A DNA stretch of 50,632 bases from Pleurocapsa sp. MO_226.B13 (GTDB taxonomy: Bacteria; Cyanobacteriota; Cyanobacteriia; Cyanobacteriales; Xenococcaceae). The notes under the pieces are model-generated. The model was not told where the DNA came from and searched no databases. It saw only the letters and a program-made list of their open reading frames with translations. The stretch is from positions 1 through 50,632 of the forward strand of contig JASJEI010000019.1 in the NCBI GenBank assembly GCA_030064795.1, given 5' to 3'. Within the stretch, counting starts at the first letter, position 1. Each line of letters starts with the position of its first letter. A program made the position numbers and the translations under genes. Shown in pieces: positions 3,151 to 50,632 of the stretch.

Positions 3151-6100
3151 ATGGTCATTCACAATAGCCGTAAATACATTGCTCGGACAATTTCTCAAGC
3201 CGAGCATAATCAACCTAAGAAGCTTATCTCTTTTCAAATTACTTCTTGGCTTGGATTTATTGGTAGTGTTACGGGCTGGTGTCTGATCCAAATTAGTCCC
3301 CTTCAGGCACAGATTACCAGTGACGGTACTACTGGTACGGAAGTCAATACTACAGATAACGTTACCGAAATTACGGGGGGAAGGAGGGCAGATAGTAACC
3401 TGTTTCATAGTTTCCAAGATTTTTCACTAGCAACAGGCAATACGGCATTTTTTAATAACGCGGGAGATATTAGTAATATTGTCAGTCGCGTTACGGGAAG
3501 CAATCTTTCTAATATCGACGGTTTGATTAGAGCTAATGGCAGTGCTAACCTGATTTTAATTAATCCCAACGGCATTATTTTCGGGGCAAATGCTCGCTTA
3601 GATCTTGGTGGTTCATTTCTGGGTAGCACCGCAGATAGCGTAGTTTTTGCAGACGGAACAACTTTTAGTGCTAGCGATATCCAAGTAGATCCGATTCTAA
3701 CTGTTAATGTCCCTGTAGGTCTGCAATTGGGTCAAAATTCTGCCAGCATTCAGGTACAGGGGACGGGTAATCTAGGTTCAGATCTAACAGTCAATCCAGG
3801 CTTATTTGTTACTCCAGGTAATACCTTGGCTTTGGTTGGTAATGGCATTACTTTTGATGGTGGTACGGTAGTAACCGAGTCGGGCAGAATCGAACTTGGT
3901 AGTGTTGCCCAGGGTGAGGTAAATCTGACTGATATTGCTGCTGGTTGGCAATTGGGTTATGAGGGAGTCGCCCAGTTCAGCGATCTGCAATTATTGGCAG
4001 GTTCGTCGGTGCTAAATCCCAATTCTTTGGATAATCCTGATGGTGGAATTCAACTAAGAGGACAAAATATTAACTTAGAGCGATCGCAAGTTGTAGCCCA
4101 GACATTAGGCGAAACACCAGGGGCAAACATAAATATTAATGCCGAAGCATCTTTGTCCTTGATCGGGATAGAAGACAGTACGGAATTGGGTTCTCAAATT
4201 ATTAACAATGTCGATGCCCAAGCCAGTGGTAATGGTGGTTCGATCGCGATCGCAACCGAGCAATTAAACATCAGCGATCGCTCTTTAATTTCTAGTACTA
4301 CTTTTGGTACTGGGAATAGTGGCGATGTCAATATTCTGGCAGGGGATATTAATCTTACTGGCACTGGATTTGTGGAATTTCAACAAAATTTCCAGCTAGG
4401 CGCGCTCACTGGAACTCTAACCCCAGATGTTTTAGGAACGGGAATTTTTGTCGGTACGGTAGCCACGGGTACAGCAGGAGATTTAATTATCGATACCGAG
4501 TCTTTAAGTCTCGATCGAGGAGCAATTATTTTTGGCCCTGTTTTTACTCAGGGTATAGGAGGAGATATCAACATAACTGCCGACGACATCGATATTAGTG
4601 CTTCTGCGATCCAAATGGGAACATCGGGCATCACAGAATCTTCTTCTTCGGGGGATCTTAACTTGAATACCAACCGCCTACAAATTCGTGATGGCGGAAC
4701 TATAGTCAACAGTACTGTCGGTATTGGGAACGCAGGCAATATTAATCTAACCGTCAGCGAATCGATCGAAATCAACAATACCCCCATTGAAGCGATAACA
4801 ACAACAGGTATTTACGCCAATACTTTTGGTAGTGGTGCGGGAGGCAACCTCAACATCAGCACTTCCCAGCTAAAAATAAATAATGGCTTAATTAGTAGTA
4901 ATACTGGGGGATTACTACTAGATGGCACAGTAATTTCTACTGGAGGTGAGGGAGGAAACATTGATATTCAAGCTAGTGAAAGCATTGAATCGAGGGGGGT
5001 TTCCAATAATCCAGCTTTCACTGTTGGTATTGGTACATCTAGCTATAGTGACTCCGACGCTGGTAATTTAACAATTTCTACGGGGAACTTGCTCGTTGAA
5101 GATGGAACAGATTTTTCTACCGCAACTTTGGGGGCAGGAACTGGCGGACAACTAACAATTAACGCTACCAACTCTATAGAACTGATTGGTACTACGAACA
5201 GCGACGGTTTAAGTCAAGGTGGTTTATTAGCAACCTCTGGCAGAAGAGAATTTCCCAATCTAGAAGCGACGGGTACATCGGGAGGAATTAGCATCAATAC
5301 TCCAGAATTAACCGTACGCAATGGTGCTAGCGTTGACGTACAGAGTTTAGGCATTGGCAATGCGGGAGATTTGAATATCGATGCCGATAAAATTATGCTA
5401 AGCGATCGAGCCAGCCTATCTGCTTCTACGCAAGCTGGTGAGGGGGGAGATATTCAAATTACCACCGACACTTTGCGACTCGATCGCAGTTTAATTAATG
5501 CTTCAGTCTTGGGAAATGGCACTGGAGGAGACATCAATATTACAGCCAGTGATTCTATAGAAATAGTTGGCTCTGGTTTTGAATTTTTACAAACTACTTT
5601 TTTTGAGCCTGGTGCTTTAAGTCCTGAATCATTGACAAATCTAGACTTTGGCTTGGTGGAGGAAGGTATTTTGGCAGCTACGATTGGTGAAGGTCAAGCA
5701 GGGAGGATTAATATTGCCACCCAGAATCTAGATCTCAGTGCAGGAGGCTTGATTGCTACGACTACGCTAGGAGAGGGAGCAGCTAGTTCCATCTTCTTAG
5801 ATGCAGCAGAATCAATAACAATAGATGCTTCGATCGTTTCTACCAGTACCATATTTAATGGTCAAGCTGGAGATATTAGTATTGATACTAATAGACTACA
5901 AGTCTTAGCTGGATCGCAAGTAAATACCTCAACTTTAGGTACTGGAGATGGTGGCAATGTGACCATTAATGCCGATGAATCGATAACTGTGTCGGGTGCA
6001 ACGGTTAACGAGACTTTGGCTAGTAGTATCGTAGTCGGATCCTTGCCTTTAACTGGAATGACAGGAGATGGAGGAGATTTAAAGATTACAACTTCTCAGT

Positions 6101-7668
6101 TAAATGTTAGCGATCGAGGAACAATCTCGGTTGGCTCTGTAGGTATGGGAGATGCTGGAAGTTTAGACATTACAGCTAATTCAATTTTTCTTAGTAACCA
6201 AGGAAATTTAACTGCTTCCAATGTATTTGGCCCAGGAGGCAGTATTGCGATCGAGACAGATACGATTAAGCTAGACCGAGGTTTAATTAATGCCTCCGTC
6301 TTTGGAGGAGGAATAGGAGGGGACATCCAAATCGAGGCTAGAGACTCTGTAGAAGTAATTGGTTCTGGCTTTGAATTTCTACAACAAACCTTTTTTAATC
6401 CAGGCGTTCCCGATCCTGAAGCTCTTGCCAATCTAATCGATAACATCGAATCTAACCCAATTACGGAAGGAATTCTTGCCTTTACCCTAGATGATGGGGA
6501 TGCTGGCACAATTATTATCGAAACCGAAGATCTACAAATACGTCAAGGAGGTTTGATTGCTGCCATTACAGGAGGAGATGGGGCAGGAGGTTCGATTGTT
6601 CTGAATGCTTCAGAGAATCTTGAGATCGATGCTTCGATTATCTCTTCTAGTAGCTTATTTACTGGTCTAGGTGGCGATATGACAATTAATACCAAAAATC
6701 TAGAAGTCTTAGCGGGGACGCAAATAACCACCTCAACTCTGGGTTCGGGCGATAGTGGTGACTTAATTATCAATGCTAGCGAGTCTATTACCGTAGCAGG
6801 GTCATCAACTACCAACCTTCCGACTAACATTGCTGTAGGGCCGCAACCCCTGACCACAACCACAGGAAATGGAGGAGATTTAACTATTACTACCGAGCGG
6901 CTAAATATTGACGATCGCGGTGTAATTTCGGTTAATTCTACAGGTACGGGAGATGCTGGAACGCTGAATATAAATGCTGATTCAATCTTTCTCGATCGCC
7001 AAGGTGTTATTTTCGCAGATACTCGCTCTGGAGAAGGGGGAAACATCGCGATCGATACAGACAATATTTTCTTACAGGGAAACAGTAGTGCTTCTGCTCA
7101 AGCTGTAGGAATGGGCGATGGTGGCAACATAACTATCGATACTAACAATCTAGTTCTTATCGAAAATAGTCAGATAACTGCGGATGCTATTGAAGGTATG
7201 GGTGGAAACATTCAAATCGACACTCAAGGATTGTTTATTTGCCAAGAATGTGAAATTACTGCCAGTTCCAGATTAGGAGTAGATGGAGTAATCGATATTG
7301 ACACCTTACAACCTAGTACCCAGCTAGAAGTGTTAGACATCCCACAACAGCTAACCCAACCCCAGGAAGTTGTTGCCATAGCTTGTCCTGCCAATGCCCG
7401 AGCCGATACCAGCGAGCTTACCATCACTGGTAGAGGAGGACTACCACTCCGCCCCCAAGAACCTCTAAACAGTCCATCGCTAATTACCTTTCAAGCTCCT
7501 AATTCACAAGTAGAACAGCCATCTAGTCCACCAGCACAAAACGTCACTTTGTTACCACCTCCAGCCCGTAGCTGGTATGTAGATGCTAAAGGCACAGTAG
7601 TTTTGTCCGCTCGAACTGCCGATACTACGATTGATAATCATCCTCCAACTTTCTCAGATTGTCAATAA
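3151..7668 (+). CDS. Filamentous haemagglutinin-type (TpsA) exoprotein
   Basis: The 1505-residue product is a secreted beta-helix protein of the two-partner-secretion type. A long N-terminal region ending LQAQ (cleavage after about residue 53) looks like a Sec signal. The TPS/haemagglutination domain follows, with the diagnostic NPNGIIFG near residue 139. Next come many Gly/Asn-rich beta-helix turns of the form GGDINI-SLSL-LISSTT. A CQEC pair lies near residue 1365. The C-terminus has the CPANARADTSELTITGRGGLP signature seen at the end of many cyanobacterial members. Residues from about 763 to 1027 and 1028 to 1295 are a diverged duplication. No TpsB outer-membrane partner is nearby, so secretion would rely on one encoded elsewhere. 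Adhesion or a matrix role is a family inference. Confidence 0.88.
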   Translation: MVIHNSRKYIARTISQAEHNQPKKLISFQITSWLGFIGSVTGWCLIQISPLQAQITSDGTTGTEVNTTDNVTEITGGRRADSNLFHSFQDFSLATGNTAFFNNAGDISNIVSRVTGSNLSNIDGLIRANGSANLILINPNGIIFGANARLDLGGSFLGSTADSVVFADGTTFSASDIQVDPILTVNVPVGLQLGQNSASIQVQGTGNLGSDLTVNPGLFVTPGNTLALVGNGITFDGGTVVTESGRIELGSVAQGEVNLTDIAAGWQLGYEGVAQFSDLQLLAGSSVLNPNSLDNPDGGIQLRGQNINLERSQVVAQTLGETPGANININAEASLSLIGIEDSTELGSQIINNVDAQASGNGGSIAIATEQLNISDRSLISSTTFGTGNSGDVNILAGDINLTGTGFVEFQQNFQLGALTGTLTPDVLGTGIFVGTVATGTAGDLIIDTESLSLDRGAIIFGPVFTQGIGGDINITADDIDISASAIQMGTSGITESSSSGDLNLNTNRLQIRDGGTIVNSTVGIGNAGNINLTVSESIEINNTPIEAITTTGIYANTFGSGAGGNLNISTSQLKINNGLISSNTGGLLLDGTVISTGGEGGNIDIQASESIESRGVSNNPAFTVGIGTSSYSDSDAGNLTISTGNLLVEDGTDFSTATLGAGTGGQLTINATNSIELIGTTNSDGLSQGGLLATSGRREFPNLEATGTSGGISINTPELTVRNGASVDVQSLGIGNAGDLNIDADKIMLSDRASLSASTQAGEGGDIQITTDTLRLDRSLINASVLGNGTGGDINITASDSIEIVGSGFEFLQTTFFEPGALSPESLTNLDFGLVEEGILAATIGEGQAGRINIATQNLDLSAGGLIATTTLGEGAASSIFLDAAESITIDASIVSTSTIFNGQAGDISIDTNRLQVLAGSQVNTSTLGTGDGGNVTINADESITVSGATVNETLASSIVVGSLPLTGMTGDGGDLKITTSQLNVSDRGTISVGSVGMGDAGSLDITANSIFLSNQGNLTASNVFGPGGSIAIETDTIKLDRGLINASVFGGGIGGDIQIEARDSVEVIGSGFEFLQQTFFNPGVPDPEALANLIDNIESNPITEGILAFTLDDGDAGTIIIETEDLQIRQGGLIAAITGGDGAGGSIVLNASENLEIDASIISSSSLFTGLGGDMTINTKNLEVLAGTQITTSTLGSGDSGDLIINASESITVAGSSTTNLPTNIAVGPQPLTTTTGNGGDLTITTERLNIDDRGVISVNSTGTGDAGTLNINADSIFLDRQGVIFADTRSGEGGNIAIDTDNIFLQGNSSASAQAVGMGDGGNITIDTNNLVLIENSQITADAIEGMGGNIQIDTQGLFICQECEITASSRLGVDGVIDIDTLQPSTQLEVLDIPQQLTQPQEVVAIACPANARADTSELTITGRGGLPLRPQEPLNSPSLITFQAPNSQVEQPSSPPAQNVTLLPPPARSWYVDAKGTVVLSARTADTTIDNHPPTFSDCQ

Positions 7669-39453: not shown

Positions 39454-39498
39454 TTACTCTAAGCATTTTTATTTATTGCAAAAGTGGGATACTCCCAC
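39454..39498 (-). repeat. 45-bp dispersed terminus, copy 2
   Basis: It matches 188-232 in the same orientation, with the hairpin GTGGGATACTCCCAC perfect at 39484-39498. It encodes the end GSIPLLQ and stop of the 732-residue protein, just as copy 1 encodes GSIPLLH and stop of the regulator. Confidence 0.6.
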
Positions 39499-41671
39499 TG
39501 ATAAATCTAACTTTCTCTGCACCTTGAATCATTTGTAAGGCAAATTGAGCTGAAGTAAAACAAGTTGTCTTCTCAATTTCATTTTTGTTTGTCAACTCAT
39601 TCTTAATTTCATCGACTAGATTATTAATGTTAACTACTTTTCTAGTCTCATCTTTCCAGTGAATAGGTTGAACTTTCCAATCACTCCTTTCCGTTCCATC
39701 TAGCTTTCTTAACTCTCGCTCCAGATTGCCATTCTCATCATTATTGAAACCAAAATGCAGTCCCTCTGGCTTGAGAGAGATATCAACTGTCAGAATTTCT
39801 CCATCAAACAGACAAATTAATACATTTTCTGAAAGGCGATCGCAACGTAAAATTTTTGCTTTCTGATTTTCGAGCATTGGTAGATCGCCAGTTATGGAAG
39901 ATTCAGAGCCATCTATTTGTAAATCTGACCAACCTGAAACTACTTCCGATCGCATTATAAAACCAGTGATTTTTTTGGCTTCACCTGTTAGAGGATTATT
40001 GGTACTATCTTGTTGCGCGCTAGATACTTGCACTCTACCAATGCTAAAGGCACCATCTAGCAGAGATTCTACCCAAAACCAATCTAACCAGAAAAAACGA
40101 ATTGATTCTGGGGGTAGCATCTGTTCTTCTGGTACTAGATAGTTAAAAGGAACATCGTATAAGAGTCCTAGTTGCTCGAACCAGGTTTTTAGATCTTCAG
40201 GGAGATCGTTATTAATAGAGTCACTACCAGAATTGTCAGGAAAGATATGAGGAAAAAGAGCTTGTTGATTATTTTGGGCTATTTTTTGGGCTTTGTTACG
40301 TTTCCAGTTAAAGAGGCTGGTGGCAAATTGTTTATCTTGTAGAGCTAATAGTTGACCGAGTTGCCAAGCTGCTGCATAGGAAATATCAAATAAACCAGTA
40401 TTAGAATTATAGGAAATAAGTTGGTCTGCACTGCGAACCGAAAGTTGAGACAGTTTTAAATCTGTCTGATTTTGACCTGGTATGAGAGGACTATGATACC
40501 AAGAAAAGGTTTTACCTCCCTGGCGGAGATAATGGGGTAAGGGAATATATCCTTTGGTAAGGTACTGTTTAGTATCAGCATTTATATTTTTAGGAAGCCT
40601 TAAAATTCCATCTCGATCATAAACACTTAGCCTATTATTTTTGCTGACAATGGAGTAATGCTTATTTTCATCTGTGATATCCCATCCCTCGCTATTGGGA
40701 ACAACAGAATAATTCTCTGAAAGGGGATTGTTGTTTTTTTTGAACTCAGTTTTTAAGCTATCTGATATCTCCCCTTGATTGAGCGTTTGTTCATCTGTAT
40801 CTGATAAGTCTATGCTAAATAATAGATTAAAATTTTCAAGCAATCCCATAAAACTTTGTTCGGGTTCAGTACAAGAAAAGCTCCAATTTTTTAGGACAAC
40901 TAGACGAATATAATTTTCATTTGTGGCATTTTGATAATTAAATTCACCATTATCGTTATATCGTTCTTCTAAGGAAACTAAATAGGCTGTGCTGATTCCC
41001 TCTTTTTTGGGAAGCCGATTGCTAATAACTAAGGATAAAGATTCGCTATTTTCTGTATCTCCTGTTGTAACTTGACGAACATGAGCTAGATATTCTAAGT
41101 CATTAATGGTTGGTAAAATAGCTTCCAGTAGCCCTCTTTTGAGATCCAAAACTGTCACTCTATCCGTTATATTATGTCCAGTAAGAACTTGAAATTTTTC
41201 CAGATCTTCAATACCAATACCTGGAAATCGAGGCTGATCGACTGCTTCAACTCTTTCGTTTAGATCTTCTAATTGTAGAACTGTTAATGGAAGAACTGAC
41301 GGCGTTTCTCCTTGTGTCTCTTCTTCATAGATAATCAATAATCCTAACCACGGGGCATTTTGGTTTCCAGATTGTGCTAATCTTTCCCAAGGTAAGGTAC
41401 TGCTTTTCAGGGCAATGTGCGGTAGGATATGGGAATGATCGCCGAGGCTACCTGATGGGGGAAAAACAGCATGAATCTCTTGGGGGTTTAATGCAAAGCG
41501 ATTTCCTCGAACTGCAAAAGTAAGATCAGAACTAAATGTTTCCTTGATATCGTCAATTTTGATAGTTTGCTCGATCTCAATTTTATATTCTCCAGCATCT
41601 AAAGGTGTTTGATGGTTTTGAATGAATTGAATTTGACCCTTGGCTGTTGTATCGCTAACTTTAACACTCAT
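39473..41671 (-). CDS. Unknown 732-aa protein of the DUF6603-type cluster
   Basis: I do not recognise a named domain. The N-terminal 100 residues are beta-rich (GEYKIEIEQTIKI, LTFAVRGNRFALNPQEIHAVFPP). The middle has LGLLIIYEEE and ISNRLPKKE-type strands and KNWSFSCTE. A conserved-looking C-terminal half includes GYIPLPHYLRQGGKTFSWYH, FDISYAAAWQLGQLLALQDK, PFNYLVPEEQMLPPESIRFF and GFIMRSEVVSGWSDLQIDG. These segments look like real conserved blocks, rich in Trp and Tyr. No signal peptide, membrane helix or catalytic motif is evident. It is the last gene of the minus-strand cluster, 23 bp after the 943-residue gene, so probably co-translated with it. Its last residues come from a dispersed repeat. 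Confidence 0.75.
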   Translation of the reverse strand: MSVKVSDTTAKGQIQFIQNHQTPLDAGEYKIEIEQTIKIDDIKETFSSDLTFAVRGNRFALNPQEIHAVFPPSGSLGDHSHILPHIALKSSTLPWERLAQSGNQNAPWLGLLIIYEEETQGETPSVLPLTVLQLEDLNERVEAVDQPRFPGIGIEDLEKFQVLTGHNITDRVTVLDLKRGLLEAILPTINDLEYLAHVRQVTTGDTENSESLSLVISNRLPKKEGISTAYLVSLEERYNDNGEFNYQNATNENYIRLVVLKNWSFSCTEPEQSFMGLLENFNLLFSIDLSDTDEQTLNQGEISDSLKTEFKKNNNPLSENYSVVPNSEGWDITDENKHYSIVSKNNRLSVYDRDGILRLPKNINADTKQYLTKGYIPLPHYLRQGGKTFSWYHSPLIPGQNQTDLKLSQLSVRSADQLISYNSNTGLFDISYAAAWQLGQLLALQDKQFATSLFNWKRNKAQKIAQNNQQALFPHIFPDNSGSDSINNDLPEDLKTWFEQLGLLYDVPFNYLVPEEQMLPPESIRFFWLDWFWVESLLDGAFSIGRVQVSSAQQDSTNNPLTGEAKKITGFIMRSEVVSGWSDLQIDGSESSITGDLPMLENQKAKILRCDRLSENVLICLFDGEILTVDISLKPEGLHFGFNNDENGNLERELRKLDGTERSDWKVQPIHWKDETRKVVNINNLVDEIKNELTNKNEIEKTTCFTSAQFALQMIQGAEKVRFISGSIPLLQ

Positions 41672-41694
41672 AATTTAAACTAAAAATAATAGGA

Positions 41695-44526
41695 TTAAAT
41701 AATTGCAGCTTCAAGTTGAGGTGCAATGATAAATGCTTGCTCTATTCCTTTGTCTGTTGTAAATTCTTCTAAATCGATCTCGATATCGGATAATCCCAAG
41801 CTTTGTTGCAAGCTATGCCTAGCATTCTTAACAGCTTCAGAAGTTATACTTTGAGCAATATTTCTTTCTCTTATATCTTCGTCTGTTTCTTCACTGGCTG
41901 AAAAAGTAGCAAACGAATTCCATTGATAGGCATTACTTACAGGTTGTGTATCGTAAGCTAGATTCTTACGCTCAATAGCTTGGGGTTCCCCAGGAGTTGG
42001 AGGATTGGCAGGCTTAATTTTATATCCAGATAATACATTGTCGATAAGTCTTGGTTGATTGGGATTGTTGCTATTGGATTCTCCCCATAATCCTGTCGGA
42101 ATATTTTTAGCAATCGGAATACATTCAAAATTACTTCCCTGGCTTTTTTCCCTACCGTCTGCTTGGATTTTTACCAGAGAAATACTATATTTCGATTCAG
42201 TAAATTTCTGGTTATTGACATTCATAGGTGCGACACCAAAGCTAGTCTCCGGCGTAATCCCAGATTCAGTCTGTTGTTTGATTAAAATTTGCCCAGTTTC
42301 AGCATCTTTAAGGGGAATTATAGAGGTAGCGGTAAAAGCAAATTCTTGAGGATTGACAATAAAGATTTCTTCTTGGTTTGCTGTTTCTAGTTTTCGCAGC
42401 AGTCCACTTGCAACATCAATGGTGCAAATTTTGTTATCAGCAGGTAAGAAAGATGTTTTGAATTCTGACCACTTAATTGGCTTGGGTTTCTGACCAGAGC
42501 GATCGCCAAAGCGAATTGTAAAAGAGACTACCGAAAGATTAATCGTGGCTGTACCTGAGAATTGTGGTCCCCAAATATGTAAGCTTGCTCCTACCTGTAC
42601 TTTAATAGTTTTACGCCAACCAAATATTTTAAAAGTGTAGGACGCACCAAGACTCAAGGAAATTCGAGCATCATAAAAATAGGGCTTCCAAGCGACGATA
42701 AAATGAGCCTTAGCAATAAACCAGGCTTTGATACTTCCCGACTGCCAAACCGCTTCTAAGCTGCCTCCTGCCATAATTGCTGAAGCAGTCAGAGCAAAGT
42801 ACATACTACCTTTGACACTCAGTTGATTACTAATGCGCCAATTGAGAGCGAGGGGATCTACCCTAGGATAGTGAGCGGGAATCTGGAAACTGGGATGGTA
42901 GCCCCCAACTGTTAGAACAAAATCGTCTTGATATCGACCAGAAAACCAACTGTAGAAGGCAAATCCCCCACTGAGATGACAGTTGCGATCGAAGAGATAA
43001 GAATCGGGCAGAATTTTGCCCTCGACTTTGAGCGTACCTTCAGAGGGAACAAAGCTAGCAAGAATAGCAAAGCGGACTTGAGCCAGAGGCGGAGGGAGAG
43101 TATCTGGGTTGACACCTGGGGGGATGGGTGGAGAAATTAAGGTTGAGATACCAAGTAGATCTAGGGCAAAGCGATCGCCGAAAGTGGCAACGAGAAGCAC
43201 AAAAGACTCAATCAGCTTAAAGGAAGTAAACTTAATTCCTACCATTAACACCACCTGTCCAACCTTGGGGGGAATGTATGGTCGTAAGTCTTGCTGAATC
43301 CCTATGAGTTCATCTACATTCGCTTGTGCGCCACTTAGCGCAGCTTGCACTAAGGGAAAATTAGGAATATCGTCAAGGGTGGGTAAAATTAAACTGCGGT
43401 TGTAGGCGAAACCCAGGGCAAGTCCAGTAACGAAGAAAAATGGAGGTCCGCCAATTGGTTTGTCTAGTACACCATAAATAAAGAGGGAGGGATGACCTTC
43501 AGTGGTAGTATACGAGCCGAATGCGAATAGAGTAAATGCTTCAGTCTTGACAATGACAGTTCCAGAGTACTCGTCTTTGCCATCAATTGTAGTTCTGAGG
43601 AAAGAACCGCCAATGGAAACTGCTCCTTCACTTTCGTAGTCGATGCCAATACCATGAAGGTTGAACTTCGGTTTAAATTGTTTGATAGATGAACCAACAG
43701 ATAATCCATCTAGGGTTAAGGTAAGCCCAGCAGAAGAAATGGAAGCGTCTAGGAGAAACCAGACTTCTGAATTTTGATATTGTACGCCAACCCGCTTGAA
43801 GTAGACAGGGCCAAAGTTCTTTTTGAGGTCAAACCATTTAGTAGTTTCAGATTTTTGTGGAGAAGTTGTTTCTGTTGTTTCTATACTGGTTTTGGCTAAT
43901 AAAACATTTGAGTTATTTTTGTTTTTACTATTGCTAGAGTCTTCTTGCCGATCGCTTTTCGTAATGGGAATATCTAAAGTTTCTAGGCGATCGCCAAATT
44001 GCATTGATGCAGATAAACCCAGTCCTCGATCGATATCTTGTTGTTCGAGAATTCCTGCGATTTTGTTAAATTTGGCGGAGGCGTAGAGAAGTTTAAAATT
44101 TTTAATCGCAATGGTTCGATCTGAGGCAAATTCCTTTCCAATTAAGGGAAGGCTAGATAAGTTAATTTCTGTACCCAGATTTAAGCTAATTAAATATTGT
44201 GTTTTTTTATCTTTTTGTCTAATAATTAATAATAGTTCGTTTAAAGCAATTTCTATATCGTCAGGTATTGAATCTCCTAATTCCTTTTCCAAGGCGTTAA
44301 CAAGATTTTTTAGTTTGATAGATTCTTGAGTAGAAATAGTTCCCTTAAGTAAAGAGGTTTCATTTGCTATTTTTTCTAGCTTAATCTCTATTGGTTGCTC
44401 GGAAACATTTAGTTCAGCTATAAATCCAAAATTAAGCTTAGCTTTTTTTTTAGTTTGATTCATTACTTCTCTAATAAGCTGTTGATGCTGATGAACTGAC
44501 AAAAGATAGTAAGGGAGAACAGCCAT
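41695..44526 (-). CDS. DUF6603-like large beta-rich protein, 943 aa
   Basis: The first 230 residues are charged and partly helical, with a low-complexity Ser/Asn/Lys linker near 190-230. From about residue 233 to 680 there is a long array of alternating hydrophobic-polar beta strands with Gly turns (FGPVYFKRVGVQYQ, GLSVGSS, GGPPFFFVTGLALGFAYNR, GGFAFYSWFSGRYQDDFVLTVGGYHP, GGSLEAVWQSG, IHIWGPQFSG-like). I assign this to DUF6603 from the GGPPFFFVTGL and LTVGGYHP patterns. The strands suggest a beta barrel, beta roll or lipid-groove protein; this is inference. The last 250 residues are hydrophilic. There is no signal peptide. The ATG and its AAGGG SD lie inside a 28-bp palindromic repeat; a later ATG at codon 22 (MNQTKKK) is an alternative start. 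Confidence 0.75.
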   Translation of the reverse strand: MAVLPYYLLSVHQHQQLIREVMNQTKKKAKLNFGFIAELNVSEQPIEIKLEKIANETSLLKGTISTQESIKLKNLVNALEKELGDSIPDDIEIALNELLLIIRQKDKKTQYLISLNLGTEINLSSLPLIGKEFASDRTIAIKNFKLLYASAKFNKIAGILEQQDIDRGLGLSASMQFGDRLETLDIPITKSDRQEDSSNSKNKNNSNVLLAKTSIETTETTSPQKSETTKWFDLKKNFGPVYFKRVGVQYQNSEVWFLLDASISSAGLTLTLDGLSVGSSIKQFKPKFNLHGIGIDYESEGAVSIGGSFLRTTIDGKDEYSGTVIVKTEAFTLFAFGSYTTTEGHPSLFIYGVLDKPIGGPPFFFVTGLALGFAYNRSLILPTLDDIPNFPLVQAALSGAQANVDELIGIQQDLRPYIPPKVGQVVLMVGIKFTSFKLIESFVLLVATFGDRFALDLLGISTLISPPIPPGVNPDTLPPPLAQVRFAILASFVPSEGTLKVEGKILPDSYLFDRNCHLSGGFAFYSWFSGRYQDDFVLTVGGYHPSFQIPAHYPRVDPLALNWRISNQLSVKGSMYFALTASAIMAGGSLEAVWQSGSIKAWFIAKAHFIVAWKPYFYDARISLSLGASYTFKIFGWRKTIKVQVGASLHIWGPQFSGTATINLSVVSFTIRFGDRSGQKPKPIKWSEFKTSFLPADNKICTIDVASGLLRKLETANQEEIFIVNPQEFAFTATSIIPLKDAETGQILIKQQTESGITPETSFGVAPMNVNNQKFTESKYSISLVKIQADGREKSQGSNFECIPIAKNIPTGLWGESNSNNPNQPRLIDNVLSGYKIKPANPPTPGEPQAIERKNLAYDTQPVSNAYQWNSFATFSASEETDEDIRERNIAQSITSEAVKNARHSLQQSLGLSDIEIDLEEFTTDKGIEQAFIIAPQLEAAII

Positions 44527-44536
44527 TCGCCCTTAC
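44509..44536. repeat. 28-bp degenerate palindrome overlapping a start codon
   Basis: Left end GTAAGGGAGAAC, right end ATTCGCCCTTAC, matching the GGGCGAAC-type repeat at 23999-24026 with changes. On the minus strand it supplies AAGGGCGAATG, that is both an SD-like AAGGG and the ATG, and the first codons of the 943-residue gene. Confidence 0.7.
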
Positions 44537-44610
44537 AATTAATGTTTAATCAAAGCTATTAAATTTAGTATGAGTTCGGGATAATCTTGTTAACTCGAAC
44601 TCACTTTATC

Positions 44611-45120
44611 TTATTTTTCGTTGCTAACTGTCAGGTAAATTCCCTTCAAAGCCAGACTTCCAACTCCTGTATCACCTGCATCGGCTGCTGTATCGGGTAT
44701 TTCTGGCCAAGTTGCTGATAAGCCTATGGTATAAAGAGTGGACGAATTAGGATTAATTGCTTTAGCTTTGCTACCAGGAATTTTAACGTGAAAATCTTCA
44801 ATGGTTAGCACAGCATCTACTACTTTTTTATAAGCTGTTTTAAGAGCGTCAATCTCTGGTAATGTTTCATTAATTTCCTCGTCTGTGGTTGGTATTGTCG
44901 AATCCGTACCAAAAGTTTTTAAAATTCCATTAATTCTATCCCCTGCTCGACCTAACGAAACTTTCGTATTGTCAGGCAAACCACATTCAATGCCATTTTC
45001 TTTAATTTCATTAATTGCAGTTGTTGGTTCGAGAGAAACTTCTTTGCCATCAACATCAAATACAAGACCAAAATAGACTTTAGTCTGATTTGTGGTTGCC
45101 AGATTTGCTGTGTTAACCAT
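44611..45120 (-). CDS. Hypothetical protein of the cluster, 169 aa
   Basis: Not recognised. Beta-rich ends (KVYFGLVFDVDGKEVSL and GSLALKGIYLTVSNEK) enclose a helical middle (INETLPEIDALKTAYKKVVDAVLTIEDFHVKIPG). The LYTIGLSATWPEI segment and the overall size suggest a compact structural or assembly protein. No signal or membrane segment. It lies 84 bp upstream of the 943-residue gene and 62 bp downstream of the 112-residue gene; a TGAGTTCG/CGAACTCA inverted repeat (44571-44603) lies in the downstream gap and could modulate expression between them. Confidence 0.65.
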   Translation of the reverse strand: MVNTANLATTNQTKVYFGLVFDVDGKEVSLEPTTAINEIKENGIECGLPDNTKVSLGRAGDRINGILKTFGTDSTIPTTDEEINETLPEIDALKTAYKKVVDAVLTIEDFHVKIPGSKAKAINPNSSTLYTIGLSATWPEIPDTAADAGDTGVGSLALKGIYLTVSNEK

Positions 45121-45182
45121 AATATTTTTCTGTTTTTCTATTGTTTAGTAAATAATTAGCGATCGCAAAATCCGTGATTTTG

Positions 45183-45521
45183 CTAGGTACTATTGACCGC
45201 GGAAGGCGGTGAACCTATGATCTCAAAAACAGTTATTGATAGTCTAAGCTTCAGATCGTCGGAAAAGTTAAAAGGAGTAGAATCTAAAGTCATCGATTTT
45301 CCTATAGCAGTATATAGCTGACCTTCAAGATTATGGAGTTCAGTTCTACATCCTTCTCCCGATTGGATCTCTTGAATCTCAGTTTGTAGTTGCAAAATTA
45401 TTTGTGAAATAGGAGTATTTTCTGAAAAATCAGTTGGTAATTCTAACTGATATCTTTTGTTAACAAGCTTTAAAAAATCTGCAATATTATTAGCTTCTAG
45501 AATTGGATTATTATTGTCCAT
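45183..45521 (-). CDS. Hypothetical protein of the cluster, 112 aa
   Basis: Not recognised. A soluble protein with an N-terminal helix (ILEANNIADFLKLVNKRYQL), a Gln/Ile-rich helix (ISQIILQLQTEIQEIQSG) and a C-terminal amphipathic strand (LKLRLSITVFEIIGSPPS). One Cys is in GEGCRTEL. It is the first gene after a 188-bp gap that separates it from the tail-fibre-like gene, and begins the 112-169-943-732 subset. Confidence 0.6.
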   Translation of the reverse strand: MDNNNPILEANNIADFLKLVNKRYQLELPTDFSENTPISQIILQLQTEIQEIQSGEGCRTELHNLEGQLYTAIGKSMTLDSTPFNFSDDLKLRLSITVFEIIGSPPSAVNST

Positions 45522-45598
45522 AATTTTTTTTAGATAGAGCTTTGATAGATAATATAGCCTTTCTAACTCTTTATAAGATACGTTTCTATTAGCTATAT

Positions 45599-45629
45599 GC
45601 GAAGCGGTATGCTAAAGCACTAGCTTCGC
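45599..45629. repeat. GCGAAGC/GCTTCGC dispersed hairpin
   Basis: Seven-base arms enclose a smaller TGCT/AGCA pair. Outer AGCTAT and ATTAGCTA words extend the symmetry over about 45585-45660. This resembles a common cyanobacterial dispersed repeat. It fills the gap upstream of the 112-residue gene. Confidence 0.6.
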
Positions 45630-45709
45630 GTCGTCCTTTAGGATTAGCTATTAGCTAAAGTTTGTAACCGTAGCAGATCGTAAATGAGAACTGCTAGATC
45701 GTAATCTCA

Positions 45710-48304
45710 TTACCAACTCCCTTCTCTTCGAGCTAACTTATTGCTAACAAACATTACATCTACATACCATGTCTCATTATGATTATGAGTTGCTATATCT
45801 GCACGAATATACCATTTACCTTGATTGACATACATATAAACTTGCACAAGGTTCTGTGCTCCTTTTTCATTTATATCTCCATTTAAAGCTCTAAAGCCAA
45901 CGATTGCTGCTGAATATTCATTGGCTGAATAATTTGTATTGTATCTTATACTATCCCCCAAATTTGTGTATCTTTTGAGAATAATAGGTTTTGTTTCAAC
46001 TTGGATATTTTGAACCTTGAGAGTCCCATTATTTGTATTAAAGTGCATTTTGACATTATCATCTGTGCCTCCCGAATCTCTGATATAAAAATTGTCATCA
46101 ACAGTTAGATAAACTTGTCCACTTTTTCGATAGATTGCCCCATCTACATTTAAGTGTGAAGAACGATTCAAGCCATCAACTCTTAGCGTTTGCGTACTTG
46201 TTGTACCATTAACTTTTAAGTCATTTACGATTTCTGCATTTCCCTCTACTTTTAATTTATTACTGCCTATATTCTTTGTTCCGATACCAATATTTCCACC
46301 TTGCTGAATAAATAATCTAAAATCTGCTACGTCAGTTTCTACAAAATTTAAACCTGGTGTATTTCCACCATAATTTTGTTCAATATGCCATTTCTTTTTG
46401 CCATTGGGATCTTCAAAAGCAATTAGCCCTTCTTGTTTACCTTGCGCTCGAATTACTAGAGGTTCTTTTGATAAATTGGACGAGCCAATTCCCAGTCTTC
46501 CGTTCGTGACAGAGAGATTACCTGCGATCGCTGTATTTCCCTTTACTTTTAACTTATTATCCCCTGGAGCAGTTGTGCCGATACCAACATTATTACTGAT
46601 TGAATTAATGGCTAATGGCTTATTGCCATGAGATTGAATCCAGCTATAATTTTGGTGATACCCCAATCGGAGGTTTGATTGATTAGTGGGACCGAGAATT
46701 AAGGTATTGCCATTAGCATCTTGATCGGTATTTTTTATATGAAGCTTGGCTTGTGGTTCGTCAGTGCCAATTCCTACACAACCGATCTTGACATTATCAG
46801 AGGTTTTATATTCTCGATATACTAAAGGCCCTTTATGAATCGGAACGTTAATATATCCATCCCAGTAACCTGGAATATTCTCATAATGAACATAAAGATT
46901 GGCATAACCAGAAAGGAGTTGAGTTTTAAGATTGCTAATATTGAGTCTTAGGATTTCTTCGCGATCTTTGAGTTCCAATCCCTCTTTACTTTGACAAATA
47001 AAACTCCACCGTGGCGTTATTCCCTGTTTTTCTTTACCGCCAAAAACCCAATTGTCTTGACCATACTCAATAATTATTTGAATATCATCTGCATCTGTTT
47101 TTTCGACTAAAGCCCAGTGTTGTGTATGATTTTCTGTTGTTTCAACATCAAAAGAAATTGTGAACTTAGCAGCTTGATCTAGAGTACTTTCGCTATCAAC
47201 AACTCCACGTAAGTTTAATGATCCTTTCTTATTCAATTCAAATTTAATTACTTGTAAGATTGGCGATCGCTTTATTATTGCCTCTATATGTGTAAGTTCT
47301 AAAGAGAGTAACTTATTCAACTTGCTTGTAATAGCATTTAGGTCATCCTGAGAGACAATACCCAAATTAGCGATCAAAATCGTCACAATTTCTTGTTTAT
47401 CGGCATCTTTTAATTGTAAAGTTGAATTTGAATTTTCCAATTTACCCTGTAGATTTTGGAAAGAATCATTTGATTCTATTGATGTCTGCAACAAAGTAAA
47501 AAATTGTTTTGTGGCATCTGATATGTTTGGGTTTTGTTGAATTTCTTCTATAGCTTGAACAAAGTTGGGAATTTTTTCTCGAACAAATTTAAGTAGATTT
47601 CCATCCCACCTAGTTGTATTTACTTTTGTTATTTCAGGAGATTCTAAAACAGTTAAGGAAACACTTTGATTGGGCAAACTTTGAATTGTTAGAGTTAATT
47701 CATTTTCAGTTCCATCATTGAGAATGGTATTAGAACCCAAAAATCCTGCATATAATGGAACTTGTTTTTTGCCTCGCTGATTAACGATATTGAGATATTG
47801 TAATTTGTTGCCACTAATCGGTTCGCTAGAACCTTGATACTGAAGATAATTATATTTAATTTCTACCCTTGTTCCCCGCGCTCCTCCTTCTGGCGCAGCC
47901 CCAATATTTTCTAGAGTTAAAGTAATCCTTGCTCCATTTTCTATTGTTCTTGGTTCGGGATTGCTTGACAGTAGATAAAATGTATTATTTTGCTCTATTA
48001 TTTGCCAACCTTCTTCTTTTTCCTTGAGAGTAATTTCTCGATCTTCGCCACTGTTAGATAGTAAAGTACCAGGTCGAAATGAAATACAAAAATGATAGTT
48101 ATTTAAGGAGAGTCGGTCGTCAATTGACTGAAACTCAATCGTTCTGCCAGAGGTATTTACAATCTCAATTGATAGAGACTGTCTCAATGAACCATCATCA
48201 ATACTGAGAATATTTTGTCCGTCTTCATCCTGTAATAAAATCTGAAAAATATCGGAACGAGTTGTAGTTGTAAATTTACCATTATTTGTAGTAGCGATCA
48301 TCAA
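45710..48304 (-). CDS. Tail-fibre-like protein, 864 aa
   Basis: The N-terminal 200 residues form a beta-sandwich-like region (QSLSIEIVNTSGRTIEFQ, NYHFCISFRPGTL, ARITLTLENIGAAPEGGARGTRVEIKYNYLQY). A helical middle of about residues 240-340 follows, then a second beta domain with WDGYINVPIHKGPL. From about residue 500 to 700 there are shaft-type repeats of the form VGIGTxxP..KLxVxGN (four or more copies), as in trimeric phage tail fibres and related adhesins. The end (SAAIVGFRALNGD ... YVDVMFVSNKLARR) would be the distal tip. No signal peptide, so export would be by lysis or a dedicated machine. A receptor-binding or target-recognition part is the likely role. Confidence 0.78.
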   Translation of the reverse strand: MMIATTNNGKFTTTTRSDIFQILLQDEDGQNILSIDDGSLRQSLSIEIVNTSGRTIEFQSIDDRLSLNNYHFCISFRPGTLLSNSGEDREITLKEKEEGWQIIEQNNTFYLLSSNPEPRTIENGARITLTLENIGAAPEGGARGTRVEIKYNYLQYQGSSEPISGNKLQYLNIVNQRGKKQVPLYAGFLGSNTILNDGTENELTLTIQSLPNQSVSLTVLESPEITKVNTTRWDGNLLKFVREKIPNFVQAIEEIQQNPNISDATKQFFTLLQTSIESNDSFQNLQGKLENSNSTLQLKDADKQEIVTILIANLGIVSQDDLNAITSKLNKLLSLELTHIEAIIKRSPILQVIKFELNKKGSLNLRGVVDSESTLDQAAKFTISFDVETTENHTQHWALVEKTDADDIQIIIEYGQDNWVFGGKEKQGITPRWSFICQSKEGLELKDREEILRLNISNLKTQLLSGYANLYVHYENIPGYWDGYINVPIHKGPLVYREYKTSDNVKIGCVGIGTDEPQAKLHIKNTDQDANGNTLILGPTNQSNLRLGYHQNYSWIQSHGNKPLAINSISNNVGIGTTAPGDNKLKVKGNTAIAGNLSVTNGRLGIGSSNLSKEPLVIRAQGKQEGLIAFEDPNGKKKWHIEQNYGGNTPGLNFVETDVADFRLFIQQGGNIGIGTKNIGSNKLKVEGNAEIVNDLKVNGTTSTQTLRVDGLNRSSHLNVDGAIYRKSGQVYLTVDDNFYIRDSGGTDDNVKMHFNTNNGTLKVQNIQVETKPIILKRYTNLGDSIRYNTNYSANEYSAAIVGFRALNGDINEKGAQNLVQVYMYVNQGKWYIRADIATHNHNETWYVDVMFVSNKLARREGSW

Positions 48305-48358
48305 AATTTCTCCGACTTGTAAACAATTTTTGAGATGTAACAGATAAATGAAGATGTT

Positions 48359-48556
48359 TTATGTTTGACTAGGTTTCGTATTAGTTTCTCCAGCATTTAG
48401 TTTTTGCTGGCGCATTTTGTTAGCTTGTACTTGGGCTTCAGCCTGAGCTTGAATTTTATTAATTAATTGAAAAACTTCGATATAGGGACGCTGCCCTAAA
48501 GAATCCAGAATTAGATTTACTTCTTCTATAGTTAGATTAATACTTATTTGTTCCAT
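48359..48556 (-). CDS. Small helical protein of the cluster, 65 aa
   Basis: It begins MEQISINLTIEEVNLILDSL, then GQRPYIEVFQLINKIQAQAE and a Gln-rich basic tail. The pattern LTIEEVNLILDxLGQxPYxxVFxLI resembles small hypotheticals found next to phage structural genes, probably helical and oligomeric. It lies between the disrupted upstream gene (27-bp gap) and the tail-fibre-like gene (54-bp gap), so it belongs to the same unit. Confidence 0.65.
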   Translation of the reverse strand: MEQISINLTIEEVNLILDSLGQRPYIEVFQLINKIQAQAEAQVQANKMRQQKLNAGETNTKPSQT

Positions 48557-48583
48557 CGTTGTTATTTTAAATAATAAATACTG

Positions 48584-49475
48584 TTAAGATATATCATTTG
48601 TATTTGTATCTAATAAGTTTGCATCTTCGGGTTTACTTAAGACTAGCCAGCCTTCTCGAATTTCTTGAGATCCTGAAAAAGTTGCTTTTGAAGATACTGG
48701 ATCGAGCCTAATTTCATTTAAATCGAATATCTGATTAATAAGATTGTCTAGATTTTTCAAATCGCCTACCAGCACTTTTCTTTCATCTTTGGCAATAATT
48801 TTAGCTTTATTTTGGAATTCTTCGTTGACATTTTCAGTAAAGGCTGTTAGCCATTTTTGATTGAATAACTCTTGCCAAACTCGATCGGTATCTTCTGGAT
48901 TTGCTGCTAACTTACGCTCAGAATAAGATCGAACGAAAGCTGCTTTTTCAATTACTGGAGTCGTCAAAATTTCCGACCAATTTTCTCTGCCTTTTTTCTC
49001 TAACCAAACCCAATCGTAATCTGGAGCTGTTGGTAAAGGAAGATTGAGACTACCTTGATTGGTCCGTTCTGTCAAAATAGGAGAGGTCAGGAATGTCACC
49101 TTGATATTGGCTAATGCCTCTGTATAATGGTCGGGAGGAATATTAATAACCTTAGTGGGCAAAATACCTGATGTCGCATGAAATACTCCTCGCGGATCGA
49201 CTAACATCGTTAAAGTTTGAGGAGCGCTACTAATAGACTGGATAATATTGATTGGTCCTTCCTCCACTTCTGGATTGATATCTGGATCTATAAATTGAGT
49301 TTCAATTTTTTCAGATTCATTAAGCTCGCTTTGTTGAGCATAAAAAATATTGTTTTCATACTCGTAGTCTTCTCCAGCTATGGTCTGTTCTTTCCAATAA
49401 CCAATAATTCCATCATTAAGCTGTCGATATTCCCCGATGCGAATTGGAACCTTAACATCGATCGAGTCATCAGTA
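48584..49475 (-). pseudogene. C-terminal part of a cluster gene cut by an IS630 element
   Basis: The conventional frame of 227 residues starts at a GTG (49267), but the same frame is open and protein-like for 69 further codons up to the IS630 element: TDDSIDVKVPIRIGEYRQLN DG... then IIGYWKEQTIAGEDYEYEN. The recognisable VPIRIGEYRQLNDG block shows that the gene once continued upstream, through the position of the insertion and beyond the window edge. The rest includes ISSAPQTLTMLVDPRGVFHATSGILP and PDYDWVWLEKKGRENW; function unknown. It lies 27 bp upstream of the 65-residue gene and is likely the 3' end of the cluster's large first gene. A short C-terminal product may still be made. Confidence 0.75.
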
Positions 49476-50632
49476 AGCTGTCGCGCATTTAAATTGCATC
49501 AACAGCATTGCCTTTGTTTTTCAATTTCCTGTCCCAATTAATAATTAACTCTCCCTGATTCAGAAGTTGATGTAAAAGAGATTCTAGTTGCTCAATAGAT
49601 TTAAAAAGGCGATGAGCCAAAAATTCCTTGGCTGAATGCCAAACTAACTCAGCAATATTATAATCTGGACTATAGGGAGGTAAAAATTCTAGAATCAAGT
49701 TAGGCATTTCTCGTGTAATTTGTTTGAGAATATCTTCTTTCTTATGAAAGCTTGCATTATCTAAAATAACCAGGATTTTTGTCCCCTTAGTCTCAAAATC
49801 TTCTGAAGCATTGCCTTGCTGTATCCACTCATTTATTACTTCTTGATAAAGTACCTTTAAAGTTAAATAAAAATTATTTCCATCTCCTTTTGGCACAAAA
49901 TCTACCACTCTTTTCTTGTCCGAATAGCGAACTGCACCCATCACATTGACTCTGCCTTTTCGTCTTTGACCAGTTATCTTTTTTCGAGAACCTTTTTTAC
50001 TCCACAGCTTCCTTCTCAAAACTCTCAAACTAAATCCGCTTTCATCCCAAAACCATATCTGTAAGAGCTTTGGCTTCTCCCGACTAATTTTTATATATTC
50101 TTCTAATTTCTTTTTGAAAAGTTTTCTTTTTTCTGGTTCTTGTTTATCCTCTAAACTATATTTTGCCCAAAGGTAAACGTACTTTTTTTGGGCTAATATC
50201 CTTCTAATTTGCGAACTACTCAACTTAATGCCTGTTTTCTCTTCTAAATAAGTGGCGAGCCTTTTTGCCGTCCATCTTCCAAATTCATATCCTAATTCTT
50301 CAGGATCTTGGTCTACTATTTTTAACAAGAGCTCAATATATTCTTCTGTCGCCTTACGATAATTTCCTGACATTCTCTTATCTTCGAGACTCTCAAGATT
50401 TTCTGGGTCTCCATGAACACACCAATATGCTATTTTTCTTAACGAACAACCCAGAAAATTAGCAATTTCTCTCTGAGTTTTACCGTCATTGAGCAATAGT
50501 AAAATTAAGATTCTTTCTCTAATTTCTGGATGTTCGTGCTCTTTTAACGTTTTTTGCAGTTTTTTTTGTTGCTCTTGACTTAGAAACCCTTTGACTGGCA
50601 TTACTCACAACTATTGATTCTATTTCCTATTT
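49475..50632 (-). mobile_element. IS630-family element, complete gene, right edge
   Basis: The transposase fills almost all of it and its stop codon lies within about 20 bp of the inner end, as in compact IS630 elements. The likely inner end is after the TA at 49474-49475, followed by AGCTGTCGCGCATTTAAATT; IS630 elements target TA. The other end is at or beyond 50632, so inverted repeats cannot be confirmed here. Confidence 0.7.
49489..50601 (-). CDS. IS630-family transposase
   Basis: The 370-residue transposase is full length. The N-terminal helix-turn-helix (ERILILLLLNDGKTQREIANFLGCSLRKIAYW) is followed by a second HTH/winged-helix region (GRWTAKRLATYLEEKTGIKLSSSQIRRIL). The DDE core has FWDESGFSL, VILDNASFHKK and LPPYSPDYNIAELVW. 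All catalytic positions look intact, so it may be mobile. It lies in the same direction as the cluster it interrupts. It is unrelated in detail to the truncated IS630 copy at 7854. Confidence 0.92.
   Translation of the reverse strand: MPVKGFLSQEQQKKLQKTLKEHEHPEIRERILILLLLNDGKTQREIANFLGCSLRKIAYWCVHGDPENLESLEDKRMSGNYRKATEEYIELLLKIVDQDPEELGYEFGRWTAKRLATYLEEKTGIKLSSSQIRRILAQKKYVYLWAKYSLEDKQEPEKRKLFKKKLEEYIKISREKPKLLQIWFWDESGFSLRVLRRKLWSKKGSRKKITGQRRKGRVNVMGAVRYSDKKRVVDFVPKGDGNNFYLTLKVLYQEVINEWIQQGNASEDFETKGTKILVILDNASFHKKEDILKQITREMPNLILEFLPPYSPDYNIAELVWHSAKEFLAHRLFKSIEQLESLLHQLLNQGELIINWDRKLKNKGNAVDAI

Follow-up and report, generated by a model that had tools for sequence, protein, structure and literature searches.

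Gene organization of the cluster

The window analysed here is the whole 50,632-nucleotide stretch of Pleurocapsa sp. MO_226.B13, and the element in question is a seven-gene cluster towards its far end, which encodes a DUF6603 protein, a fibre-type protein and the remainder of a giant protein. The seven open reading frames (ORFs) all lie on the minus strand between positions 39473 and 49267, with the last frame open to about 49475, and are tightly spaced, with intergenic gaps of 23, 84, 62, 188, 54 and 27 bp. The arrangement is that given in the first-pass annotation, made from the sequence alone, which had described seven minus-strand genes separated mostly by 23–84 bp. Relatives were collected in a DUF6603 scan with one genome per species, and the best 80 of 132 confirmed loci (numbered with the prefix L) were analysed.

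In ascending coordinates, the cluster encodes a conserved 732-aa protein of a function-unknown family (39473..41671), the 943-aa DUF6603 protein (41695..44526), proteins of 169 aa (44611..45120) and 112 aa (45183..45521), an 864-aa fibre-type protein with a TTG start (45710..48304), a 65-aa protein (48359..48556) and the C-terminal part of the giant, of about 297 codons (48584..49475). The 65-aa gene, placed between the giant and fibre genes, has homologues in 12 of the 80 loci. Neither Pfam nor NCBIfam gave a match above cut-off for the 732-, 864-, 169-, 112-, 65- and 227-aa proteins, and the best PHROGs match of any window gene had an E-value of 0.046. Sheath, tube, baseplate, capsid, portal and terminase families, noted as missing in the first-pass annotation, likewise gave no match above cut-off in the seven genes with any of these three collections. 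The earlier remark that signal peptides are missing also holds by a crude hydropathy test, run without a signal-peptide program: no strongly hydrophobic stretch was seen at any of the seven N-termini, the highest 10-residue hydropathy being 1.66 (943-aa protein). Compared with the related locus L001, sequence identities are 41% for the 169-aa protein, 35% for the 112-aa protein, 46% for the fibre, 49–58% for the 732-aa protein, 61% for DUF6603, 65% for the end of the giant, and 78% over 54 aa for the 65-aa protein.

The last ORF of the cluster (48584-49267, 227 aa, GTG start at 49267), which had been listed simply as interrupted, encodes the C-terminal portion of a giant of about 1300 aa; the relatives have 1378 aa (L001) and 1296 aa (L003, cut by the contig stretch). 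The homologous frame continues up to an IS630-family transposase gene (49489..50601, minus strand; NF033545, E 4.2e-83; PF13358), where matching ends, and the 5' part of the giant gene lies outside the window. The window copy looks damaged by a jumping gene. Pfam scans of the L001 and L003 giants listed no TcA, TcB, Rhs or YD-type family and no umbrella-particle family.

DUF6603 and 732-aa proteins

The 943-aa protein, described before as DUF6603-like, is confirmed as a full member of the family, with an E-value of 1e-138 and 463.6 bits (cut-off 27) against PF20248, covering model positions 1–501 of 502. It consists of the constant core only: the N-terminal region of about 550 residues of the usual form (about 1450 aa) is missing, such that residue 20 corresponds to residue 587 of the L007 protein. 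DUF6603 has no function assigned in Pfam. No literature naming DUF6603 or PF20248 was found, in a coverage that left out most subscription papers and bioRxiv preprints, and among the papers listed by feature-based searches none describes the module, as judged by titles and the openings of abstracts.

An AlphaFold2 model of the 943-aa protein was obtained with a pLDDT of 83.4 and a pTM of 0.69. The strands of the core alternate between hydrophobic and polar residues to a degree reached in none of 2000 shuffles. A Foldseek search with the core placed ApoB100 first, followed by outer-membrane proteins including LptD, with porins also present. The core is predicted to be an amphipathic beta sheet resembling porins, LptD and ApoB. 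For the 732-aa protein a confident structure model was obtained, which has no clear match in the PDB.

Conservation of the module

Family counts were taken from a six-frame search, and ORF maps of the relatives from greedy longest-ORF calls, in which antisense ORFs masked some genes in high-GC loci. Among the 80 loci, the 732 family was found in 77, the giant in 68 and a fibre-type protein in 59. In the 53 loci that span 20 kb or more, the 732 family and the giant are each present in 52 and a fibre-type protein in 46, and all three accompany DUF6603 in 45; the ORF maps gave lower numbers for these 53 loci (732 family in 47, fibre in 41, all in 36). Co-occurrence of the 732- and 943-aa families with a fibre-type protein had been proposed as a check in the first-pass annotation, and the homologues are not scattered: the module recurs across at least eight named phyla, with carriers in Cyanobacteriota, Acidobacteriota, Chlorobiota, Bacillota, Actinomycetota, Bacteroidota, Pseudomonadota and Chloroflexota, as well as in candidate groups. 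Tolypothrix (L001), Chitinophaga pinensis and Herpetosiphon aurantiacus are among the carriers. It is a real conserved module with the same large core proteins.

The DUF6603 and 732 genes make up 69 neighbouring pairs, of which 60 are separated by −60 to 60 bp. Two gene orders were observed. The giant lies upstream of DUF6603 in 31 loci (giant, fibre, X, DUF6603, 732, where X is the variable gene treated below) and downstream in 37 (X, DUF6603, 732, giant, fibre). When the flanking genes of the 80 loci were compared among themselves by blastp, no recurrent unassigned family was found in more than five loci, apart from the X groups and the second fibre-type group. Distribution is sporadic: among 194 genomes sampled from one phylum, including a known carrier at the centre of the sample, DUF6603 was found in three, the 732 family in the same three and the giant in two.

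Five carrier genomes contain one to three DUF6603 copies each, and the extra copies have other neighbours. Two such copies in one genome (L093 and L094) have neighbours unrecognised by the 732 and giant profiles, one lying next to ORFs of 1069 and 2045 aa and the other next to a PhoD-like X. Four further loci (L056, L057, L058 and L063) encode a DUF6603 protein of 3622–3723 aa, a 732 family split over two ORFs and an X of 257–301 aa.

Fibre-type proteins

The 864-aa protein has a conserved N-terminal part and GIGT-type repeats from residue 510 to about residue 676. The VGIGT-type fibre repeats reported for it earlier are borne out by four matches to [VILF]GIG[TS], starting at residues 510, 573, 604 and 672; 2000 shuffles gave 0.02 matches on average and never more than 2. 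Its own profile identified relatives in 42 of the 80 loci and the profile of a second, distantly related fibre-type group in 17, which together make the 59 loci given above. Between the two gene orders, the fibre-type proteins show a distant relationship at their N-termini (hhalign E-value 1.2e-4, probability 55). Ten fibre-type proteins were scanned for domains. Laminin_G_3 was above cut-off in six and a lactonase-type propeller in one, Gp10_C was found in two (one above cut-off) and Collar in two (both below), and three had no match at an E-value of 0.01. The L014 fibre also matched the receptor-binding domain of a clostridial toxin, below cut-off and in a region that overlaps its Laminin_G_3 match; this was read as the same lectin-like fold. 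The fibre-type protein varies more than the chassis formed by the other large proteins, and its relatives contain domains of the lectin, propeller or fibre-tip type.

An exchangeable gene and a matching DUF6603 N-terminus

Most relatives contain a feature that goes beyond the first-pass annotation, as does the cut of the giant at IS630: an exchangeable gene ahead of DUF6603, together with a DUF6603 N-terminus that matches it. This gene, X, was defined as an ORF of at least 180 aa on the same strand and at most 600 bp upstream of DUF6603. It is present in 52 of the 80 loci, falls into 19 blastp groups, and in 43 of the 52 is separated from DUF6603 by −200 to 100 bp. The X proteins come from mutually unrelated families, unknown ones among them. 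No small gene recurring beside X, as an adjacent immunity gene might, was found among the blastp flank clusters, and in L014 the fibre, X, DUF6603 and 732 genes leave no room for one. A Pfam scan covered 30 upstream proteins, comprising 27 X proteins, two encoded by genes further upstream and one doubtful call. Eleven of the 27 X proteins have a match above cut-off: Lactamase_B (L014, L033, L095), Exo_endo_phos (L045, L015, L017), DUF4135 (L035), Lipase_3 (L007), LCAT (L046), Trypsin (L078) and PhoD (L093). Of the two genes at a greater distance, one matches DUF4135 (L037) and the other methyltransferase/TPR families (L004); we take DUF4135 to be a LanM-dehydratase-like family. A motif of the metallo-beta-lactamase (MBL) type is present in 18 of the 52 X proteins.

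When X was mapped on a FastTree phylogeny of the DUF6603 core, its type changed at least 25 times (50 labelled loci, 15 states, minimum 14), on a tree with long branches and with X labels assigned partly by motif or by eye (L062, for example, as a nuclease/phosphatase fold) and unknowns labelled by blastp group. Pairs of loci were then compared for a match between the first 400 DUF6603 residues (E 1e-5), using 46 of 49 loci; L030, L049 and L050 were left out for their short N-termini, and L067, L070 and L072 had been excluded beforehand for doubtful ORF calls in high-GC DNA. A first version of the test covered 39 loci. Where the cores are at least 70% identical, the N-termini match in all 14 same-X pairs and in one of 20 different-X pairs. 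The corresponding numbers are 11/17 and 8/103 for cores of 55–70% identity, 7/24 and 0/144 for 45–55%, and 12/30 and 17/683 for 30–45%. When X was permuted among the loci, the observed count was reached in none of 5000 trials.

The exchange is illustrated by L007 and L034. Their giants are 88%, 732 proteins 85% and DUF6603 cores 92–95% identical, and their X proteins are unrelated; the beginnings of their DUF6603 proteins are unrelated up to about residue 250 and only about 27% alike up to about residue 416. The pairs L009/L012, L008/L010 and L019/L053 show the same pattern. Sliding identity placed the switch point at about residues 550–600 (L007, L010) or 650–850 (L009, L019). On sequence comparison, X and the first 400 or so residues of DUF6603 thus behave as one exchangeable cassette, in which X is often a putative enzyme.

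The slot of X and the DUF6603 N-terminus is taken in the window by the 169- and 112-aa genes, whose homologues occur in three (L001, L006, L024) and two (L001, L006) of the 80 loci, respectively. The window and the three loci with a 169-family gene fall on three separate branches of the tree (the window and L001 forming one) and have short DUF6603 proteins of 901–994 aa; other loci (e.g. L030, L049 and L080) combine a short DUF6603 protein with the absence of a 169-family gene. The 169-family gene of L024 lies upstream of the giant and not ahead of DUF6603, and the gene therefore seems movable. With the 112- and 169-aa genes in place of the cassette, DUF6603 reduced to its core and the giant gene interrupted, the window copy is probably non-functional in its present form.

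Genomic setting

Neither 50,697 phage records nor viral contigs yielded a relative, and eight plasmid records contain a match. A Paenibacillus polymyxa plasmid (L099, L101) carries the DUF6603 module about 9 kb downstream of two baseplate-V (VgrG-like) genes, a DUF4280 gene and a GH-E nuclease gene, and the copy on a Streptomyces plasmid has CATRA/CHAT conflict genes in its vicinity. A sheath family is present somewhere in three of seven carrier genomes, at a distance of about 67 kb or more from any DUF6603 copy.

Elsewhere in the window, a 1505-aa two-partner secretion exoprotein with a TPS secretion domain (E 1.5e-59) is encoded at 3151-7668 on the plus strand, and central-carbon genes are clustered at 9005-33957, including phosphoketolase-like and pyruvate, phosphate dikinase/phosphoenolpyruvate-synthase-like genes, a pyruvate:ferredoxin oxidoreductase (1216 aa) and a phosphotransacetylase.

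Proposed function and alternatives

The chassis of the module is constant and comprises the DUF6603 core, the 732-family protein and the giant of about 1300 aa. By analogy, a constant chassis that combines an exchanged X and its matched holder with a varied lectin or fibre, no leader and a sporadic spread has the pattern of an effector-carrying conflict system. The explanation that we favour, and to which we give about an even chance, is a self-contained, leaderless, modular effector complex with an exchangeable enzyme and an exchangeable lectin or fibre, acting by delivery to another cell. The DUF6603 N-terminus would hold its own X, the amphipathic beta core would contact or enter a membrane, the fibre would bind the target surface, the 732 protein and the giant would form the body, and the whole complex would release or deliver X to another cell. 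We consider delivery most likely because domains of the lectin and fibre-tip types point to the outside and the core has the look of a membrane-active part. The first-pass annotation had proposed a particle or surface-delivery system that pairs a recognition fibre with a beta-rich protein; the pairing and a barrel- or lipid-groove-like predicted fold have stood, while particle formation and delivery are still matters that we infer. A further step, possible but less probable than the effector complex itself, would be that the module represents a new class of self-assembling, leaderless delivery complexes with no relationship to Tc toxins, contractile systems or umbrella particles; DUF6603 would serve as both cargo holder and membrane-active part, targeting would be by interchangeable lectins or fibres, and horizontal spread would have reached at least eight phyla.

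Several observations weigh against this explanation. Sixteen of the 27 X proteins scanned have no Pfam match above cut-off. No gene for export, lysis or an NTPase turned up in the module, and none was recognisable as an immunity gene, the flanks having been compared only with each other. Pairs in the N-terminus test are not independent: the 20 different-X pairs with cores at least 70% identical come from only nine loci, all cyanobacterial (the 14 same-X pairs come from 17), and therefore represent few independent exchange events. When the N-terminal piece is lengthened to the core boundary, 19 of these 20 pairs match and the contrast is gone, so that exchange is limited to the first 400 or so residues and the transitional stretch is part of the chassis. 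As X and the N-terminus are direct neighbours, their joint exchange could reflect recombination linkage and not physical fit. The barrel-like matches of the DUF6603 core have rmsd (root mean square deviation) values of 12.6–23.4 Å among the 50 rows listed and TM-scores on the query of at most 0.17, and a barrel, a groove and another kind of sheet are therefore not separated. The window copy itself has neither X nor the exchangeable DUF6603 N-terminus.

The main rival, which we regard as unlikely though better placed than the others, is an intracellular conflict system, for example an anti-phage one, in which X would be the effector, the DUF6603 N-terminus would control it, and the fibre- or lectin-type protein and the giant would sense the invader. 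The MBL-type X of L014 resembles the anti-phage MBL effectors listed as LmuA, RTasMBL and Avs1a, a further point against delivery, and other X proteins are trypsin-like or lipase-like. N-termini that are not leader-like, the position of the Streptomyces plasmid copy and the sporadic distribution (3/194, with the centre genome among the three) fit the same explanation. However, the window genes have no NTPase and no recognised sensor or signalling domain, lectin-type and fibre-tip domains point outwards, and neither the L001 giant nor the five window proteins scanned (those of 732, 943, 169, 112 and 864 aa) gave a PADLOC match at an E-value of 0.01.

Slightly less likely again is a complex outside the cell or on its surface, for enzyme display or lipid carriage, with a lipid groove in DUF6603, the lectin or fibre as anchor, and an X that modifies polymers or lipids of the surroundings without attacking a cell. 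The order of the Foldseek matches, with ApoB100 at the top and LptD among the outer-membrane proteins next, would suit such a role, as would the lipases and the PhoD-like phosphatase among the X proteins, but nuclease- and protease-type X proteins and frequent exchange on near-identical chassis look like conflict and not housekeeping, and no N-terminus is leader-like. It is very improbable that the cluster is the remnant of a phage tail or contractile system with a fibre gene surviving beside unrelated genes, as suggested by the GIGT repeats, the Gp10_C and Collar matches and the VgrG-like genes near the Paenibacillus copy, since phage records and viral contigs yielded no relative, the window genes have no PHROGs match below an E-value of 0.046, no flank family beyond the X and fibre-type groups recurs in more than five of the 80 loci, and sheath genes are confined to three of seven carrier genomes and distant from the module. 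As far as tested, the locus does not look like an ordinary prophage or a known contractile injection locus, the two settings that the first-pass annotation had named as contrary to its proposal: the window genes include no capsid, portal or terminase gene, as expected of a tailed phage or prophage, and no sheath, tube, baseplate or ATPase gene, as expected of a contractile injection system or tailocin.

The effector-complex explanation and its main rival share one consequence. Under either, the way in which X and the N-terminus are exchanged suggests a directly testable part for DUF6603, that of a carrier fitted to its cargo, in a module of at least eight named phyla whose core stays constant while its enzymes and fibre-type proteins are swapped. 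If the enzymes are delivered, this would be a new class of delivery complex; if they work inside the cell, a new conflict system.

Comparison with known systems

Tc toxins are multi-component systems with a pore part, a cargo-holding part and a variable enzyme. At the level of sequence families, the module differs from them in that no TcA, TcB, TcC or Rhs/YD-type family was found in the window genes or in the L001 and L003 giants. Contractile injection systems such as Photorhabdus virulence cassettes (PVCs) have a fibre tip and no leader, and the module differs from these in having no sheath, tube, baseplate or ATPase. Extracellular contractile injection systems such as PVCs provide self-contained delivery of diverse protein effectors (PMC6748792).

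The umbrella toxin particles of Streptomyces are described as multi-protein assemblies with a polymorphic toxin and variable lectins, with three versions in a single genome (PMC11062931). Variable lectins and a variable toxin or enzyme are common to these particles and to the module. The module is found far beyond Actinobacteria. Umbrella (Umb) components presumably include an ALF-repeat toxin protein, and none of the expected Pfam families was found in the window genes or in the two giants scanned, a difference that applies to sequence families only.

In contrast to polymorphic toxin systems, the module has X as a separate upstream gene that is swapped jointly with the N-terminal part of a different protein, and neither an immunity gene nor a trafficking domain was recognised. 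The likeness to these systems lies in a constant carrier with an often-exchanged enzyme part (PMC3482391). Such enzyme exchange on a constant carrier is not seen in the window copy and is found in its relatives.

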